Shown: piece after piece, positions 3,120 through 12,057 of the stretch
How the letters are laid out: each line of letters starts with the position of its first letter
How positions within the stretch are numbered: the stretch's first letter is position 1
The notes under the pieces: model-generated
What the model was told of the DNA's origin: nothing
Seen by the model: the letters and a program-made list of their open reading frames with translations, nothing else
Databases searched by the model: none
Translations under genes and position numbers: made by a program
From: a virus
Reading direction: 5' to 3' (one strand)
Virus record (IMG/VR): IMGVR_UViG_3300032331_000902
Span: 1-41,294 of that record
Length of the DNA stretch: 41,294 bases

Positions 3120-3440
3120 ATGGACATAGACCCAACACGAGCAGTAGAGTACATTCAAAAAAACGCAGAAGTATTTTCTGAAGCAAAATCAGAACGGGTA
3201 AGAATCGAATCGTATCTAAAGTACCTCAAGGCATCCTTGATGAACAAAAGTGACTCCACCAGCCTTGGCGCAAAAGAAACGTATGCTTACAGCCACCCTG
3301 AGTACCTAGAACAGATAAACGGATTAAAGGTAGCGGTGGAAACTGAAGAACGCATGAAATACATGATGGAAGCCGCAAGAATGAAAGTAGAGATTTGGAA
3401 AACACAAGAGTACACAAAACGTGTTGAAATGAAACTATGA
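3120..3440 (+). CDS. Conserved helical hypothetical protein, 106 aa
   Basis: The protein is charged and almost wholly helical, with coiled-coil character in both halves (KSERVRIESYLKYLKASLM and ETEERMKYMMEAARMKVEI). Proteins of this pattern often sit directly before DUF1364 genes in phages, as here, where the stop overlaps the next ATG by four bases. An accessory role in recombination is a guess from this context. Confidence 0.7.
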   Translation: MDIDPTRAVEYIQKNAEVFSEAKSERVRIESYLKYLKASLMNKSDSTSLGAKETYAYSHPEYLEQINGLKVAVETEERMKYMMEAARMKVEIWKTQEYTKRVEMKL

Positions 3441-3838
3441 AGATTTACAGAGACAAATCCCTGCTAAAACTGGCCCAAGGGGAAGAATGCCTTTTAAAGG
3501 TCCCAGAAATTTGCCAGGGGGGGACTGAAACAATTGTGGCCTGTCATAGCAATCACGGCTCGGACGGCAAAGGCATGGGCCAAAAAGCCTCAGATGCCGC
3601 TACAGTGTGGGGATGTGCAGCTTGCCACAAATGGCTAGACCAAGGGCCAGCCTCGCAGGAGGAAAAAGCCCAAGTATTTGATGATGCACTTACACTGCAA
3701 TACATCGAATGGATTAAAATAGCCCGAACACCTTCCCTGCGTCCCTGGAAGGTCACTGCCGCCAAAAACGTACTTAACCACCTAGGACTATCATGGACCC
3801 AATCGGCGACTTCATTCTTTCGATATTGCACACGATAA
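3437..3838 (+). CDS. DUF1364 HNH/zinc-like putative nuclease
   Basis: The N-terminal two thirds match DUF1364: DKSLLKLAQGEECLLKVPEIC, then ACHSNHG, DGKGMGQKASD, and a CAACHKWLD block. These place four Cys and several His as in HNH-type metal-binding folds. The family is found in lambdoid recombination regions and is usually called a nuclease-domain protein, though its activity is poorly established. The last 15 codons overlap the next gene in another frame. Confidence 0.78.
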   Translation: MKIYRDKSLLKLAQGEECLLKVPEICQGGTETIVACHSNHGSDGKGMGQKASDAATVWGCAACHKWLDQGPASQEEKAQVFDDALTLQYIEWIKIARTPSLRPWKVTAAKNVLNHLGLSWTQSATSFFRYCTR

Positions 3839-4152
3839 CGAACACCCACATTCTGCATTGGCAGACTAAATCGTTTTCTGAGCATACTGCCCTCGGCGAG
3901 TTCTACGATAGCCTACAGGACCTTGTAGATACCCTGGTGGAGTGTATGCAGGGCAAGTATGGAATGATCCTGCAATTCCCTGCCACCTATCACGCTCCAA
4001 GCCCAACCGGACTGGAAGAGTTGCAAGCATTCGGACAGTATTTTGCCCAGGGCCGTCAGCAATTGCCCCAGGACAGTGAGATACAAAATCTCTGTGATGA
4101 AATTGCCGCTTTAATTGACCAAACCACATACAAATTGACTTTCCTAAAATAA
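3793..4152 (+). CDS. Ferritin/Dps-like protein (DUF5856-type), 119 aa
   Basis: The segment LHTITNTHILHWQTKSFSEHTALGEF is split by a Gln/Thr turn and resembles the first helix of Dps-like four-helix proteins, where His-Trp begins the metal-site helix. DSLQDLVDTLVE follows, like the D-x-x-x-E helix. The protein is shorter than bacterial Dps (about 160 residues), but phage members annotated DUF5856 have this size. A role in iron or oxidant handling, or host-DNA binding, is inferred. ATG 3793 overlaps DUF1364 by 46 bases with AGGA upstream. It is the last gene of the rightward early block. Confidence 0.62.
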   Translation: MDPIGDFILSILHTITNTHILHWQTKSFSEHTALGEFYDSLQDLVDTLVECMQGKYGMILQFPATYHAPSPTGLEELQAFGQYFAQGRQQLPQDSEIQNLCDEIAALIDQTTYKLTFLK

Positions 4153-4375: not shown

Positions 4376-4555
4376 CTAATGTTTGTTTTTAATCAAATGG
4401 GGCAAAAATGTAGTGTCGCCCAATTGACGCAGTGCAACATAATGCAGCAAAACATGAGTTTTGCTCATGCCTTTAGATGGATGTTTTGCTGACCATGCAA
4501 TACTTGATGGTGGCATGAGTCTAATTAAATGACCCAAATATTCCGATCTTTTCAT
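4376..4555 (-). CDS. Hypothetical protein, 59 aa, third gene of the GP88 cassette
   Basis: ATG 4555 is selected because GGAG lies nine bases upstream, and it begins two bases after the stop of the membrane peptide. The product is basic and His-rich (about six His) with no obvious membrane segment (MKRSEYLGHLIRLMPPSSIA). The terminator stem begins at its stop codon. Family not recognised. It is probably co-expressed with the GP88 protein and the membrane peptide. Confidence 0.6.
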   Translation of the reverse strand: MKRSEYLGHLIRLMPPSSIAWSAKHPSKGMSKTHVLLHYVALRQLGDTTFLPHLIKNKH

Positions 4556-4557
4556 AA

Positions 4558-4647
4558 TTACATTCTCCAAAAATAAAGGACAAAAGGAAAAAACAACAGC
4601 GCAGCGAAAATCAATGCTTGGAATAGGTCAATCAGAAAAGTTTTCAT
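4558..4647 (-). CDS. 29-residue single-pass membrane peptide
   Basis: ATG 4647 overlaps the TGA of the GP88 gene (ATGA), and the frame ends with TAA two bases before the next ATG, so it fills the gap between two genes exactly. The peptide is MKTFLIDLFQ followed by a strongly hydrophobic stretch (residues about 11-26) and a WRM end. That gives one membrane helix with a short N-terminal tail and no signal peptidase site. Small phage membrane peptides can modulate host envelope enzymes or pores. No function is claimed here. Confidence 0.6.
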   Translation of the reverse strand: MKTFLIDLFQALIFAALLFFPFVLYFWRM

Positions 4648-5300
4648 TGTGCTGCCTTGATAGAGATTACTTTCATCATTTTGCGCCCGTGCGCTGGATA
4701 GCAAATCAGATCGATCTCTTTATTCCAGCAAGCCCTACAGCCACTGCATTTGCCATCGTGCTCATATGCTTGGCACAACGATGCACCAGGGAATGCCTGG
4801 AATGTCGCTGCATCCGGTCCGATAACGCTGCCATGCAATCCAGGCGTAAATGATCCATCGATGGAATCAGCAGAAAACCGCACGGAAACGTTTTCTAGTT
4901 GCTGCATTTGATCGAACACCATGCGAAATTTGGGGAATTTATGCATCCTGGTAGGCAACCAATGTTTGCACCATGGTGTCCGCTGCATTACCTCGAGCAC
5001 TTTTTCAGCCAATGCCAGGGAATATAGGTCCCCGCTATCCAGCCAGCGAAAATAGCGGTCGGTTTCCAGTGCTGTAACCATATCGTCGCACCATTCCACG
5101 CGCTGCCAATCCTGTTTGTTCTCTGCCCGTGGGGCCTTGACATTGGGGTAATTGTAATTCCCTGTAGTGGCGTAACAACCCTTACAGGCATCCACCAGCA
5201 CACCAGGACTCTCTACTGATCCTGGGCACGTTTCAATTGCCTGTAGTGACCAGGACCGGATTCCATCTAGTTTAGATGTAACAGAAATACGTATTGACAT
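4644..5300 (-). CDS. GP88-family Cys-rich protein, 218 aa
   Basis: The start at 5300 is supported by GGAG eight bases upstream; longer in-frame starts have no such site. The pattern matches the GP88 family first named in mycobacteriophages: TSKLDGIRSWSLQAIETCPG, CKGCYATTGNYNYPN, a WLDSGDLYS segment, PWCKHWLPTRMHKFPK, and a C-terminal CSGCRACW knuckle. The biochemical function of the family is not known to me. The many Cys suggest a metal or Fe-S site. It is the first gene of an isolated leftward three-gene cassette lying between two rightward blocks, which suggests an independently controlled accessory unit. Confidence 0.75.
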   Translation of the reverse strand: MSIRISVTSKLDGIRSWSLQAIETCPGSVESPGVLVDACKGCYATTGNYNYPNVKAPRAENKQDWQRVEWCDDMVTALETDRYFRWLDSGDLYSLALAEKVLEVMQRTPWCKHWLPTRMHKFPKFRMVFDQMQQLENVSVRFSADSIDGSFTPGLHGSVIGPDAATFQAFPGASLCQAYEHDGKCSGCRACWNKEIDLICYPAHGRKMMKVISIKAAQ

Positions 5301-5693
5301 TTGACAATCTCCAGTAGCAGTGCAATAGCGCACACACACAATATAACGCTAAATAAACGTTTCTAGCATAGGTATAAACCCTAAGTTGTACGATAGAAAA
5401 GTAATAACGTTAAGACAGAAACGTTTTAAGTGTTTGAATACTTAGGTTTTCAAATAGGCCGGAAAACTAGTCAATTACCCGACAGTCTGCATTGTGTGCA
5501 ATGTGACCATAAAACTACTGTCTGTCTGCATTATTTATAGGCAGTGCAATCCGCGCAAACCCTAGCACTTAGGCCGGTGTTTCATTGGAGAGGGTAAGAG
5601 AATGCCGTAGGGGAATACAACAATGATGGACTCTCACCGGATCGCTGCGCTCACCATGCCATCACGACAATAAACGTTACAAAAACGCTAAAC

Positions 5694-5810
5694 GATAGGG
5701 GCCCTCTCTCCGCACAAATCAGCGGCTTACCCCCTCCCCTCAAACATTTGCCCCGTACAATCAGCAGGGGGGGTAGGACTGGAACCGGTTCAGAAGAGGG
5801 GGGCCCTATC
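5694..5810. repeat. Nested inverted repeats upstream of the late operon
   Basis: The outer arms of 15 bases (5694-5708 and 5796-5810) pair with two mismatches, one of which is G-U in RNA. The inner arms TACCCCC and GGGGGTA (5728-5734, 5769-5775) are perfect. The structure ends some 60 bases before the first late gene. As RNA it would be a long branched stem; as DNA it could extrude a cruciform. No T-run follows, so it is not a typical terminator. Confidence 0.6.
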
Positions 5811-5847
5811 ACCCATTCCCAAAATTTCTATAAAAACTTTTTCAACG

Positions 5848-5853
5848 TATAAT
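5848..5853 (+). promoter_or_regulatory. Candidate late promoter -10 box (TATAAT)
   Basis: A perfect TATAAT lies 17 bases before ATG 5871. The matching -35 at a 17-base spacing (5825-5830, TTTCTA) is poor. Start of transcription would be near 5860, so the leader would be only about ten bases and barely include the AAGGA ribosome site at 5860-5864. The box may need an activator or be fortuitous. Confidence 0.35.
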
Positions 5854-5870
5854 TGCGAAAAGGAATCGCT

Positions 5871-6368
5871 ATGGAATGGACATTGGCTCACCCGTTAAGG
5901 GATGTGGAAGATATCGTAGAGATGGCTGACGAGTACTTTGTGGATACTGGGGAAGTACTACAGAAGAGCAAGGACTTGTTCCGTAAGAATGTGACTATGG
6001 TGTCTACCCTACAGTTGTTCGACAGGAGTAAGGAGTTTCTTGCGGTTTGTCGGGATGACAGGATGGTAGGGTACTGTTGGTTTGACAGGTATGGATATAC
6101 GACTTACTCTACGGAGGAGATATCCAATGCTAAATTCCACCATGTTGACCACAAATTAAGTCCTAGGGTTAAAATACGTTTAATAAACGAAATGATTGAC
6201 CAACATATACTATGGGCGTACAGTAATGGGGTTCCCGTTATTTGTTCAACTAGTATTCGTCCGGAGCATGATGTGTTTATGAAGATCCACAAGAAACGTG
6301 GGTTTATCGTGAATGGGTCTTATGCCTGGATACGGACTGAGGAAGGAATTAAATGCTTGACGAAATAA
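5871..6368 (+). CDS. GNAT-like N-acetyltransferase, 165 aa
   Basis: This is the first gene of the late block. ATG 5871 has AAGGA six bases upstream, while an in-frame TTG at 5853 lies inside the TATAAT box and is rejected. The sequence has the GNAT layout: N-terminal helices, EFLAVCRDDRMVGYCWFDRY as the strand 2-4 hairpin, then helices and a final KIHKKRGFIVNGSYAWI block like the C-terminal strand-helix-strand (motif B). The acetyl-CoA loop is not a clear Q/RxxGxG/A, so catalytic activity is uncertain. Such proteins often open packaging operons of podoviruses. The substrate is unknown. Confidence 0.6.
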   Translation: MEWTLAHPLRDVEDIVEMADEYFVDTGEVLQKSKDLFRKNVTMVSTLQLFDRSKEFLAVCRDDRMVGYCWFDRYGYTTYSTEEISNAKFHHVDHKLSPRVKIRLINEMIDQHILWAYSNGVPVICSTSIRPEHDVFMKIHKKRGFIVNGSYAWIRTEEGIKCLTK

Positions 6369-6811
6369 GACCAGAGGGTAGTCATGTGTCCTCTGAGGCT
6401 AAGAAGGCTGATAGTAGGGCTCGTGCTGCTAAGAAGAAGGCAGAGAAACGGGCAATGGGCTTGGCTACTGGCAAGGTAGAGCCTAGACAGAGTTTTAACC
6501 CTGCTGGACGGCCTAAGTCCATTGTTAACAGGGTGACGGAGTATGGGGCGTTGTTTAACCGCCTGAATGACGAACACGTTGCCAAAGGGTTCCCTCCCTT
6601 GAAGACGGCTATGGAGGTTTTGATTGAGGCCATGCAGTCTGACGAGTTGGACATCCAGCAGAAATCCAAGATTGCTGAGAAGCTGGCTACCTTTGAATCC
6701 TCCAGAGCGCCTATAATTTCCATAGAACACGTTCAGAATATCAATAAGGAAGACGAGATTGATGCTGACATGGCTCTAAATGACTTTATGGATTCTTTGA
6801 GGAAGGTATAA
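6353..6811 (+). CDS. Putative terminase small subunit, 152 aa
   Basis: The N-terminal third is highly basic (Lys/Arg/Ala-rich, residues 16-45) and is followed by a [13 protein letters not shown] motif seen in DNA-binding small terminases and related proteins. The remainder is helical. It overlaps the GNAT gene by 16 bases and is the only DNA-binding-like protein upstream of the large terminase. Assignment rests on position and composition, and it could be another DNA-binding protein. Confidence 0.45.
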
Positions 6812-8117: not shown

Positions 8118-8305
8118 TGGAAAACATCCATTTAGACTTCAATAAAAGGCTGTCCTCTCAGGCCGAGGTTTGTGCAAGAAAAAGTTTGGAGTGGATTCAA
8201 AAAGATCTCCAAGCCGCGCACAAACTTTCGCCAGAGGACATCTATTATTTGGCTCGTGCAGCACAAGTCTTTTTAGAAATAAGAGATCGTCATGGCAAAG
8301 AGTGA
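8117..8305 (+). CDS. Small helical protein, 62 aa
   Basis: ATG 8117 is part of a TAATG overlap with the previous stop. The protein is charged and helical with ARKSLEWIQKDLQAAHKLS and YYLARAAQVFLEIRDR. The end overlaps the large terminase start by 14 bases. This size and helical make-up directly before the large subunit would also suit a terminase small subunit, an alternative to the 6353-6811 gene. Confidence 0.6.
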   Translation: MENIHLDFNKRLSSQAEVCARKSLEWIQKDLQAAHKLSPEDIYYLARAAQVFLEIRDRHGKE

Positions 8306-9884
8306 AGCCAGTGATTACATCTTACCGGTCTACAAAAACCGAGCATTAAAGCACCTGGTTAAACTTGCTGGCGGCAAACAATACATTAAGTATTTGGATG
8401 CTGACCAGTTAAGGTCTATGCACGTTGCTAGGGACAAGATTGCCTATGATATGCAGTTCAATGCTATCAAGTGGTTTAAGCCCTTTGAATACCAAAAAAA
8501 GTTCTTTGAAACCGGTGCAAATTTTTCCCGCCGAGGAATGATTGCCGCTAATCGCGCCGGTAAAACCATTGCTTCTACTTACGAAACAGCTTACCACCTG
8601 ACCGGCAAATACCCTCCAGATTGGAAGGGTAAACGTTGGGACAAGCCAATTATTGCTATGGCGGCAGGAGAATCCTGGGAACAAGTTGCAAAAACGCTAC
8701 AGTCCAAATTGCTGGGTTGTGATGATATTAAGCAGTCTTACAAGTTAGGTTCAGGGTCAATTCCAAGGGATGCTATTGATGACAAATCTATACGAACGGA
8801 CGGAGCGAACGTGCTGGCTATTGAAGTCTGGCACATCTCTGGGGGAAAGTCCAAGCTCTATTTCTCCAACTACACCCAACAAGTCCGTCACTTACAAGGG
8901 TTCGAACTTGACCTCGTTGTCTTGGACGAACAACCACCAGACGAAACGTTTTCCGAGCTTGTTGTCCGGACGGCTGCTAGGGACGGGCAAGTCATTTGCT
9001 CATTTACCCCGCTTAAAGGGCTCTCAGGACTAGTCCGAAAGTTCTGGGACAACGTTGAAGGCTATTGCCATGTACGGGTAACCTGGGACGATATTCCCTA
9101 TCAAAATGAATGGGGTGAAGAATTCTTTTCCAAGAAAGAACGGGAACAGTTGGCCCGAGACTTTATGCCTTGGGAACGGGATTGCCGAATGAAGGGTATC
9201 CCTTTGGTAGGAAAAGGTGTAGTATTCCCACTGTTAAAATGGCCTACTTACAAATCTACCGACATTGAGTTGCGTGAAAACAACAAATTAGAACGATTGA
9301 TCTCTTTTGACTTGGGGATTAAAAATGATCCGACAGTTATTTCGTTTTTCTTCAGGGACCCTGTGGAGCAGATTATCTATTTGCACCGACAAGTTACTGT
9401 TGACAAAGGAGAAACTCCTGACGAGTATGTCCATTATTTACTGGATCGTGAATCTAGAAACGTTCCTATTGCTCTTCCCCACGATGCTGCTACTGCTGGT
9501 AGATATACCTTGACCGAGCAATCTGTCCGTGAAGTATTTGAAGATAGTTACAATTTGAACTGTATTGCTGGTGCTATTTTGAACCCGCCCAACGATCAGG
9601 GTAAGGTTACTAACCACAAAGCCTACGGAATAAACGTAATGCGAATGGGTATGGAACGGCAGACTTTTATGATTAACGAGTCCTGTGTTCAGTTCCTTGA
9701 TGAAGCCAGAAATTACGCTATTGACGAAAATGGAAAGTTTTCTGATCCAGACGATCACATTGATTCTGCCCGTATTGGTATACTCGCCTTAATTCAAGGT
9801 CATGGGGAATCTGTGGTAAGCAGATCTAACAACTTTACTGCCCGTAGGTTTACCCCGCTAGAAGGCAAGGCACAAAGGATTTAA
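8292..9884 (+). CDS. terL: Terminase large subunit
   Basis: This is the ATPase and nuclease motor that cuts and pumps phage DNA into the prohead. The N-terminal ATPase domain has a Walker A motif AANRAGKT (85-92) and a Walker B motif LVVLDEQ (208-214). The C-terminal RNase H-like nuclease has SFDLGIKNDP (Asp340), LPHDAATAG (Asp398) and DDHID (487-491) as the acidic metal ligands. At 530 residues it has the usual family length and appears intact. The portal gene follows after one base, so the two are co-translated. Confidence 0.95.
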   Translation: MAKSEASDYILPVYKNRALKHLVKLAGGKQYIKYLDADQLRSMHVARDKIAYDMQFNAIKWFKPFEYQKKFFETGANFSRRGMIAANRAGKTIASTYETAYHLTGKYPPDWKGKRWDKPIIAMAAGESWEQVAKTLQSKLLGCDDIKQSYKLGSGSIPRDAIDDKSIRTDGANVLAIEVWHISGGKSKLYFSNYTQQVRHLQGFELDLVVLDEQPPDETFSELVVRTAARDGQVICSFTPLKGLSGLVRKFWDNVEGYCHVRVTWDDIPYQNEWGEEFFSKKEREQLARDFMPWERDCRMKGIPLVGKGVVFPLLKWPTYKSTDIELRENNKLERLISFDLGIKNDPTVISFFFRDPVEQIIYLHRQVTVDKGETPDEYVHYLLDRESRNVPIALPHDAATAGRYTLTEQSVREVFEDSYNLNCIAGAILNPPNDQGKVTNHKAYGINVMRMGMERQTFMINESCVQFLDEARNYAIDENGKFSDPDDHIDSARIGILALIQGHGESVVSRSNNFTARRFTPLEGKAQRI

Positions 9885-9885
9885 A

Positions 9886-12057
9886 ATGCTGGACAAACAG
9901 AACCTGGTTATTGAGAGCCTAGAAAGCCCTACGGGTAATCGTGGAATGACGGAGCAAACTGTCCATGAAGTCTACGTCAAAATGGTCGATTATCTTCGGC
10001 TAACACAATCCAAAAACACCTTTAATCGTTTTAGTGATTACCACTATCTCAACATTCCTGTCTCAAACTCTACCGAGCCGGTACGAGGTATTGACTACAT
10101 CCACCCAGTAGTAACCCCAGGCATTGATTATGCAACTGCCATTATTACTAAATGTTTGATGCCCAACGGAAAAGTAAACTTTGAGTTTGAAAGGTTTGCG
10201 GAAAACGATAGTGACCAATCTCGACAAGCCACCGAGATGGTCAAATACATGATTAACAGCAAGAATGATTCGTATCAAATCATTCGTGATTGGGCTCAAG
10301 ATGCACTGCTGCACAAGAACGGAATTGTTATGCTTTCCCCTGTGCGTGAGCCAATTACTCAGTACAAGGAAGTTGAAGGAACTAAAGATCAATTGCGTAC
10401 ATTTGAGACTCTTGCCGGTGATAAGGGTCTTACTGCCAAGCGGCAGAATATGCGTAAGATTGACGTAAACCTGCAAGGCGCAATGCAGGAAATGATGACT
10501 CCTGACGAGCAAGAGACAGAACAAGAATCTCAAGGTGATGAGGTTTCGGAAGCAATCCGCAACAACAGCATATATCGTGCGAAATATAAACTAACCGGTT
10601 ATTCAACCAACATTAAGATTAAGCACGTTGCACAACATTACTTTGTTTGCAATCCGACAATCTCTAATATCCAAGATCAGGACTTCGTTGGTTTCTACGA
10701 TCCAATGACGATCCATGAGTGCAAAGCTCAATTTCCCTTTGTTGACCTTGAGAAACTAGCAGATCACGCTGCTTACGGACCCGCTGGAGCCTACCAAGCT
10801 GGCGCATTGGAAAACGATCTTGCTCTCCATGCTCGAGACTCCACCCCAGTGCCAGGACAAGGCGTTATTGCCTCTCAGGGTGCAGACCGGTACAGCCGAG
10901 TCATTATGTTGACCACCGCTTGGATTCGCAAGGACATTGATGGTGATGGCGAGGAAGAGATCATTGAGGCTTGCTTCTCCGGTTCGTACATCCTATACGT
11001 CAAAGAAGTAGACTTTATTCCCTTGGCGAATATGTGTCCCAAGCCTATTGTTGGCAACTTCTTTGGATACTCCCTTGGTGAGCGTTTAGTTCCCTTGCAG
11101 GAATACGCTACCGCTATTCGCAGGGCAGAGATGGCGTTTGCAATGCAATCGTCCACTCCACGGATTGGTGTCAACCCCGAGTTCTTGGATGCCGAGGAAA
11201 TCCAGCGTGGTGTAAGCGCCATGTTTATCTTGGACCGCAAATTTGACCCATCCAAGCACATCTTTGAATTCGCGCCTATGCAGGGCAATCTTGCTTACGT
11301 CCAATCCTCTATGGAGCGATTTGATTCTGACAAGATGGCAATGATTGGCATGACTAGCCCTGGTGACGTATTGAACCCAGAGGTTATGAAGGACGGCAAT
11401 AGCGGTTACAAGTTGCAACTGGCTATGGGTCCCAACCAATTGATCCAAGACGAAATGGTAAAGAACTGCGCCATTGGTCTGCGGGAAGTTATCTACATTA
11501 TGTGGAAAACGTTGGTTCAGTATTCCGACGATTACAACATCCAACAATTGGCTAACAACTGCTTAAAAGGACAACCCTTCCTAGACGCAAAATCCGTTGA
11601 AAACTTTGAGTTTATTGACCGCAAGCTGATTAACATTGATTTGGCTTTGGGCTTTATGTCTGACGAAAACCGCCTTACCCGCCAGCAAATGATTATCCAA
11701 GCGCAGCAGGGTTTTGCTCAATCCATGATGCAGATTGACCCTAGCGTACCGGAATTGTTTGTCAAGATTCGCCGTCCTTTTGAGGATACCCTGCGGGTTC
11801 TTGGAGTCAAGGATGTGGATGCTTACCTGCCCACAATGGATGAAGCGGCTAAGATGGCAAAAGCCAAATCAGATAAACCTCCAAGCCCAGAAGAACAGGA
11901 AATGAAATCCAAGGTTGATTTAAACAACGCCAAGGTTAGTGAAACTAATGCCAAGGCTGGATTGATTACAGCCCAAACCCAAGACATTGGAACGGACAAT
12001 ATGTTTGAAATGATGGCTGCAAAAGCAGGAAAATTAAAAGCTGTAGAAATAGATTAA
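9886..12057 (+). CDS. Portal protein (P22-like size), 723 aa
   Basis: This forms the ring at the capsid vertex through which DNA enters and the tail is attached. The identity is supported by its place directly after the large terminase, its length (P22-type portals are about 725 residues), YRFSDYHYLNIPVSN-like opening domains, a DIDGDGEEEIIEACFSG strand pair, and a long C-terminal helical barrel rich in Lys/Ala/Gln (about 640-715). A DMxxMxxxGP-like clip cannot be pinned down by eye. Confidence 0.85.
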   Translation: MLDKQNLVIESLESPTGNRGMTEQTVHEVYVKMVDYLRLTQSKNTFNRFSDYHYLNIPVSNSTEPVRGIDYIHPVVTPGIDYATAIITKCLMPNGKVNFEFERFAENDSDQSRQATEMVKYMINSKNDSYQIIRDWAQDALLHKNGIVMLSPVREPITQYKEVEGTKDQLRTFETLAGDKGLTAKRQNMRKIDVNLQGAMQEMMTPDEQETEQESQGDEVSEAIRNNSIYRAKYKLTGYSTNIKIKHVAQHYFVCNPTISNIQDQDFVGFYDPMTIHECKAQFPFVDLEKLADHAAYGPAGAYQAGALENDLALHARDSTPVPGQGVIASQGADRYSRVIMLTTAWIRKDIDGDGEEEIIEACFSGSYILYVKEVDFIPLANMCPKPIVGNFFGYSLGERLVPLQEYATAIRRAEMAFAMQSSTPRIGVNPEFLDAEEIQRGVSAMFILDRKFDPSKHIFEFAPMQGNLAYVQSSMERFDSDKMAMIGMTSPGDVLNPEVMKDGNSGYKLQLAMGPNQLIQDEMVKNCAIGLREVIYIMWKTLVQYSDDYNIQQLANNCLKGQPFLDAKSVENFEFIDRKLINIDLALGFMSDENRLTRQQMIIQAQQGFAQSMMQIDPSVPELFVKIRRPFEDTLRVLGVKDVDAYLPTMDEAAKMAKAKSDKPPSPEEQEMKSKVDLNNAKVSETNAKAGLITAQTQDIGTDNMFEMMAAKAGKLKAVEID

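Follow-up and report, generated by a model that had tools for sequence, protein, structure and literature searches.

The GP88 family (PF17338) and DUF7227 (PF23872) are known protein families that span phages of very different hosts, GP88 being also found in archaeal viruses. The two families are homologous (hhalign 99.9%, E 1e-31) and differ by the cysteine spacing of their N-terminal site. The literature searched provides no function for DUF7227, and neither a function nor a membrane-peptide partner for the GP88 family. The locus described here belongs to an uncultivated phage record from IMG/VR, analysed over its 41,294 bases (hereafter, the window). It encodes a protein that shares with GP88/phrog_1392 the profile and the cysteine and DSGD-type motifs, and whose predicted fold matches members from phages and from archaeal viruses (Nitrosopumilus spindle-shaped virus, Halogranum tailed virus 1).

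More distant systems also bear comparison. DUF5131, or phage Gp37/Gp68 (PF07505), has the CxxCYA motif and the order of predicted elements in common with GP88; the CxxCYA, LPTR and VRFSSD segments align whereas the middle DSGD segment does not, and the match is not conclusive (hhalign 60%, E 8e-5 over 100 columns with a broad alignment; 0.04% with a narrow one). The radical SAM enzymes, whose cluster motif is CX3CX2C although non-canonical variants exist, display alternating helices and strands like those predicted for GP88, which lacks the canonical motif. The CX14CX2C spacing of QueE (PMC4389238) is close to the CX13CX2C of GP88. As regards small membrane proteins, a screen of mycobacteriophage Amelie identified growth-inhibiting ones, including gp43, toxic on over-production (PMC11797047); these proteins associate a single helix and a small accessory gene, as here, a likeness of general form.

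The present analysis indicates that short genes encoding one-helix membrane peptides recur beside GP88 genes and, judging from gene neighbourhoods, that this pairing reaches DUF7227 and several peptide subfamilies. The pairing appears undescribed in the databases and literature searched. Having a membrane peptide as a recurrent neighbour offers a concrete indication of the site at which GP88 and DUF7227 act and of what they act with; more largely, phage peptides whose length approaches or falls below the usual limit of gene calling can be conserved genes under selection.

Organization of the leftward cassette

In the window, a GP88 gene, a gene for a 29-residue membrane peptide and a 59-residue ORF (ORF3) are coupled on the leftward strand and followed by a terminator-like hairpin (Table 1). 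The TGA of GP88 (4646-4644) and the ATG of the peptide (4647-4645) overlap as ATGA, and ORF3 starts at position 4555, after a two-base gap, with a GGAG located 9 nt upstream, within the 3' end of the peptide gene. This is the arrangement that had been described in the original prediction, as are the His-rich character of the third protein (6 His among 59 residues), the opposition of the unit to the blocks on either side (3437-4152 and 5871-6811, both rightward) and the presence of its own upstream non-coding region, no convincing leftward gene being found in 5301-5870. The hairpin alone is not strong evidence, as the region contains four hairpin-type sites versus a mean of 2.6 in shuffles. A promoter scan gave nothing above chance. 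Elsewhere, the window encodes a terminase (8292-9884) and an SU10-type portal (9886-12057).

Table 1. Features of the leftward cassette and of its upstream region
Feature	Position	Strand	Basis
GP88-family (PF17338) protein, 218 aa	4644..5300	-	Pfam match, homologue alignments, AlphaFold2, dN/dS
One-helix membrane peptide, 29 aa, MKTFLIDLFQALIFAALLFFPFVLYFWRM	4558..4647	-	Stop at 4558-4560; orthologue in L003
ORF3, 59 aa	4376..4555	-	Homologues in other loci, dN/dS
Terminator-like hairpin closing the leftward unit, AGCCCGCCATATGCGGGTT-TTTT	4377-4359	-	Sequence
Non-coding leader 5' of GP88, RBS CTGGAG	5301..5766	-	Comparison with L003, L004
Conserved non-coding element, upstream edge of the cassette	5767..5843	not assigned	Alignable in other loci

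The rightward pair at 3437-4152, beside the hairpin, encodes a YbcO/HNH-type nuclease (PF07102, phrog_131) and a DUF5856 protein (phrog_858, a group labelled as starvation-inducible transcriptional regulator).

The 29-residue peptide

An intact orthologue of the peptide lying directly downstream of GP88 is found in only one other locus, L003, whose GP88 is 96% identical. The two peptides share 25 of their 29 residues: 15 base differences lead to only four residue changes and the frame is intact. The corresponding rates (NG86: dN 0.076, dS 0.993, dN/dS 0.077) and a randomised placement of the base changes, in which 0.027% of 200,000 trials do equally well (P=0.0003), confirm from the substitution pattern that the 29-codon frame is a real coding gene under purifying selection; frame disruption in close relatives, which would have refuted the original prediction, did not occur. 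The Shine-Dalgarno sequence of the peptide gene is weak (AAGG, 7 nt before the ATG), and its translation therefore probably leans on the ATGA coupling.

Homologues of the peptide are encoded upstream of GP88 in L004, L032, L034, L037, L019/L021, L040 and L050. Neither the peptides nor ORF3 match a known family at a meaningful E-value in Pfam, PHROGs, NCBIfam or PADLOC, and a tblastn search of cultured phages with the peptide consensus gave no match. The description of the peptide as unannotated is correct in general, but short peptides near GP88 are already annotated as CDS in two records (UOF77740.1, 32 aa, in MW202484; UOF82033.1, 30 aa, in MW202796). The 'yvrj' label of a similar 32-aa peptide of MW202484 received no Pfam support in this analysis.

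One-helix peptides beside GP88 and DUF7227 genes

The relatives of GP88 collected from IMG/VR correspond to 136 non-redundant loci, 117 of which have enough flanking sequence. In these, we looked for same-strand ORFs of 20-45 residues starting with ATG, preceded by a Shine-Dalgarno-like motif, encoding one strongly hydrophobic segment and located at most 600 nt from GP88; genes lying over 3 kb from GP88 in those contigs served as controls. Such a one-helix ORF was found within 600 nt in 48 of the 117 GP88 loci versus 17 of the 478 control genes; by the same criteria, about 59% of the GP88 loci have none within this distance. The cultured phages Seuss and HTVC027P likewise show none.

In the 500 nt upstream of GP88, membrane-type short ORFs have a density of 1.23 per kb of non-coding sequence versus 0.02-0.03 further upstream, whereas those of non-membrane type show no enrichment in that interval (0.39 versus 0.32-0.59). 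Membrane-type ORFs thus account for 76% of the short ORFs in these 500 nt versus 3-8% beyond 1 kb upstream, with the caution that this fraction climbs again 3-10 kb downstream of GP88 (10/27). The hydrophobic neighbour that had been expected downstream of GP88 in related phages therefore does recur, but not always on that side, since in most relatives it lies upstream. The check for GP88 homologues on plasmids that the original prediction had suggested found none.

A second type of one-helix peptide, ending with D-x(3)-WR (for example MSFFDRHELLILSVVGALALFVVGMDVFFWRAV), is encoded near GP88 in L055, L056, L058, L060-L063, L066-L068, L076 and L077; it resembles the LAYFDVLTK type (see below) in shape, but has no clear relationship with it.

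As the 29-aa peptide alone is too short for a search of relatives, IMG/VR was also scanned with a DNA pattern for the LAYFDVLTK tail of one peptide subfamily, without any use of GP88. The matches listed comprise 80 loci, most of them encoding one-helix peptides of 27-46 aa. Among these matches, 57 of the 80 loci have, within 1 kb of the peptide and on its strand, a gene of the GP88 superfamily, whose start is often about 10 nt beyond the peptide; 18 have no detectable gene of this superfamily and 5 end too soon to judge. According to Pfam, the partners comprise GP88 itself, two divergent types of GP88 (PF17338 at 4.7e-35 and 4.5e-19) and DUF7227 (5.5e-81), so that DUF7227 genes are accompanied by the same LAYFDVLTK peptides as GP88; a further partner, S2, is a DUF7227 relative (hhalign 96% to DUF7227). 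Outside the search motif, the wider peptide family shows a median dN/dS of 0.22, with 95 of 99 pairs below 0.5, the pairs not being independent. The subfamily of the window peptide matches the LAYFDVLTK family at 90.6% over 26 columns (hhalign), and the window peptide outscores all 200 composition shuffles, with a weak E of 0.1. These comparisons give moderate support, short of proof, to a common origin of the diverse peptide subfamilies, including that of the window.

Variable gene order and the place of ORF3

The idea of a fixed three-gene operon was rejected because gene order and content differ among relatives. In L003, a different sequence follows the peptide and ORF3 is not adjacent. In L004 (GP88 93% identical), a terminator-like hairpin comes right after GP88, and a homologue of the 29-aa peptide, 55% identical, lies upstream of GP88 behind a similar leader. 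Within one close group, the peptide gene is thus downstream of GP88 in the window and L003 but upstream in L004. In L006 and L007 (GP88 87% identical), the hairpin that follows GP88 is itself followed by a different one-helix peptide and then by a homologue of ORF3.

ORF3 is rare, with homologues in seven other loci (L006, L007, L008 and L087-L090), and is coding (dN/dS about 0.13 versus L087-L090). Its homologues usually touch a one-helix peptide and also occur without a nearby GP88. Thus, in L087, L088 and L090, a one-helix peptide of 45-47 aa is encoded within a few bases after the ORF3 homologue with no GP88 nearby, and in L088 and L090 a DUF7227 relative lies upstream of it instead of GP88. 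These neighbourhoods suggest that ORF3 is an optional third member, which tends to travel with the one-helix peptide rather than with GP88, in a free gene order.

Other small genes are found in the same region. A 75-aa Cys-rich ORF without Pfam match (MIKSM.AKYPG.C...GARINPGD...APCCGCCTI) lies near GP88 or DUF7227 genes in 47 of the 288 collected loci (L088:2710-2934; also L193, L199, L216, L233, L254 and others). A 67-aa ORF (MYFDRFDICEAYF...HCHGGQWSREYARLC) is upstream of GP88 in L004 (about 2776-2979), but lies on its other, downstream side in L033 and L001, which again illustrates the free gene order in the cassette. Anti-restriction genes are located near ORF3 in L087 (1902-2669, ArdC N-terminal domain) and just downstream of GP88 in L083 (3698-4546, annotated in MW202796); as each case was seen once, a link between the cassette and ArdC-type genes is not general among the collected loci and was not retained.

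Motifs and predicted fold of the GP88 protein

The GP88 protein of the window matches PF17338 with 103.7 bits (cut-off 24.4; E 1.8e-29), matches phrog_1392 too and is under purifying selection (dN/dS 0.04 versus L003). It scores 25.4 bits against DUF7227, below the cut-off of 27; the two families are homologous but separate. Its motifs are a Cys25-X13-Cys39-X2-Cys42 loop, FRWxDSGD and a C-terminal Cys176-X8-Cys185-X2-Cys188-X2-Cys191; R85, DSGD 88-91, T117, R141 and S143 show no variation in at least one of two alignments (48 and 60 homologues). The AlphaFold2 model (pLDDT 89.2, pTM 0.88) alternates helices and strands (alpha/beta), Cys25, Cys39 and Cys42 coming after an early strand and the four C-terminal cysteines forming a second group. 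Given these cysteine motifs, a metal site is likely; that GP88 is an enzyme is possible.

The model has no fold match in the PDB at E<=0.001, and a sequence search of solved structures gave nothing. Among the viral models of BFVD, it matches named GP88 proteins with E-values down to 8e-9; apart from these, the significant matches that bear a name are one DUF7227 and one Gp37/Gp68-like protein. The model of DUF7227 is too weak to rely on (pLDDT 65) and its neighbours in the PDB, mostly TIM barrels, are without significance. PADLOC gave no match to known anti-phage defence.

Membership of the radical SAM enzymes was considered and found unsupported: besides the negative PDB search, GP88 matches Radical_SAM viral models only at E 0.07 or worse, and hhalign gives 0.2% with Radical_SAM and 1% with QueE, whereas the positive control, QueE with Radical_SAM, matches at 97%.

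Proposed role of the pair and alternative readings

We lean, with about even confidence, towards the view that the GP88-superfamily protein and the one-helix peptide work as a pair bound to the membrane, whose target is a membrane process of the host. The presence of the peptides beside this family, far above chance, points to a probable partnership at the host membrane, and the occurrence of one peptide family beside both GP88 and DUF7227 looks as if either protein fills the same slot. The cassette would be an accessory phage operon, opposite to its neighbours and probably early, whose core would be the GP88-superfamily protein with a one-helix inner-membrane peptide as its partner. Most likely, the peptide would anchor GP88 at the membrane or offer it to a host membrane target, and the pair would thereby change a host membrane process in infection. 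We infer here physical contact, membrane location, early expression and a benefit for the phage. The host takeover or exclusion proposed originally is a possible outcome of this pair model, in view of the position of the cassette and the membrane character of the peptide.

The chief rival, which we regard as unlikely but quite conceivable, is that GP88 and the peptides are independent accessory genes of a hypervariable small-gene region, the peptide being a stand-alone host-interfering or exclusion peptide. Such a region is a variable small-gene array in which genes can reside together without contact: order and content around GP88 vary freely even among loci with 93-96% identical GP88, neither the order nor the spacing of the peptide relative to GP88 is fixed, and other small genes, such as the 75-aa Cys-rich ORF, recur. 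The peptide loci devoid of a detectable superfamily gene, among the matches listed, fit this explanation as well. However, independent genes would not readily account for an enrichment upstream of GP88 that concerns only membrane-type short ORFs and not short ORFs generally, or for one peptide family that precedes GP88 and DUF7227 alike, often directly.

A broader proposal, that GP88 and DUF7227 constitute a superfamily of small phage metalloenzymes, possibly radical-SAM-like, paired with dedicated one-helix peptides as anchor or substrate, seems doubtful to us; if true, it would reveal an undescribed enzyme-peptide system across many tailed phages. In another reading, which we judge rather improbable, GP88 would be a small iron-sulfur enzyme, radical-SAM-like or of another kind, acting on the peptide beside it as substrate, on the model of the PqqA/PqqE-type pairs of enzyme and peptide precursor. 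A short ORF next to a Cys-rich alpha/beta protein whose C-terminal part bears another Cys cluster would suit this reading, as would the QueE-like cysteine spacing (PMC4389238), the moderate DUF5131 profile match and the aromatic-Asp tail that recurs on many peptides; the missing Radical_SAM and QueE profile matches and significant PDB fold match, and the fact that the peptides are mostly membrane helix, argue against it.

It is very unlikely that the peptide is of a lysis type (holin-like) or a general membrane-depolarising peptide. It does consist of a single strongly hydrophobic helix, and some single-helix phage proteins, such as Amelie gp43 (PMC11797047), are toxic if over-produced, but its gene is joined to GP88 in a unit that runs leftward, flanked by rightward blocks, and the neighbours covered by the scan include no recognised lysis gene, the phage's own lysis cassette not being located. 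Finally, it is most improbable that the 29 codons form an open frame within the gap by chance, to which their short length and weak Shine-Dalgarno sequence might point, as this is contradicted by the substitution pattern (dN/dS 0.077, P 0.0003) and by homologues at other positions near GP88.

Genome position, leader and conserved upstream element

The window and the related MW202796 are alike in that the terminase block and the GP88 cassette diverge, and four cultured phages (jiawei, S2B, CRP-403 and Superchunk) carry DUF7227-like genes near their genome ends. This position of the cassette fits early expression without proving it.

The whole 5301-5870 stretch is 80% identical to that of L003, and the GP88-proximal part of the leader is similar to the leader found in L004, whose cassette begins with another gene. 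Searches of the window for Rfam families and tRNAs gave nothing. At the upstream edge of the cassette, a 75-nt element (AGGGGGGTAGgaCTGGAAC-N(10-12)-AGGGGGGCCCactcacCCATTCCCAAAATTTctacAAAAACTTTTc) is conserved within intergenic DNA that cannot otherwise be aligned. It is shared with 21 other distinct phage loci, where it mostly precedes a GP88-superfamily gene by 0.85-2.1 kb; it may possibly be a packaging or terminus site.
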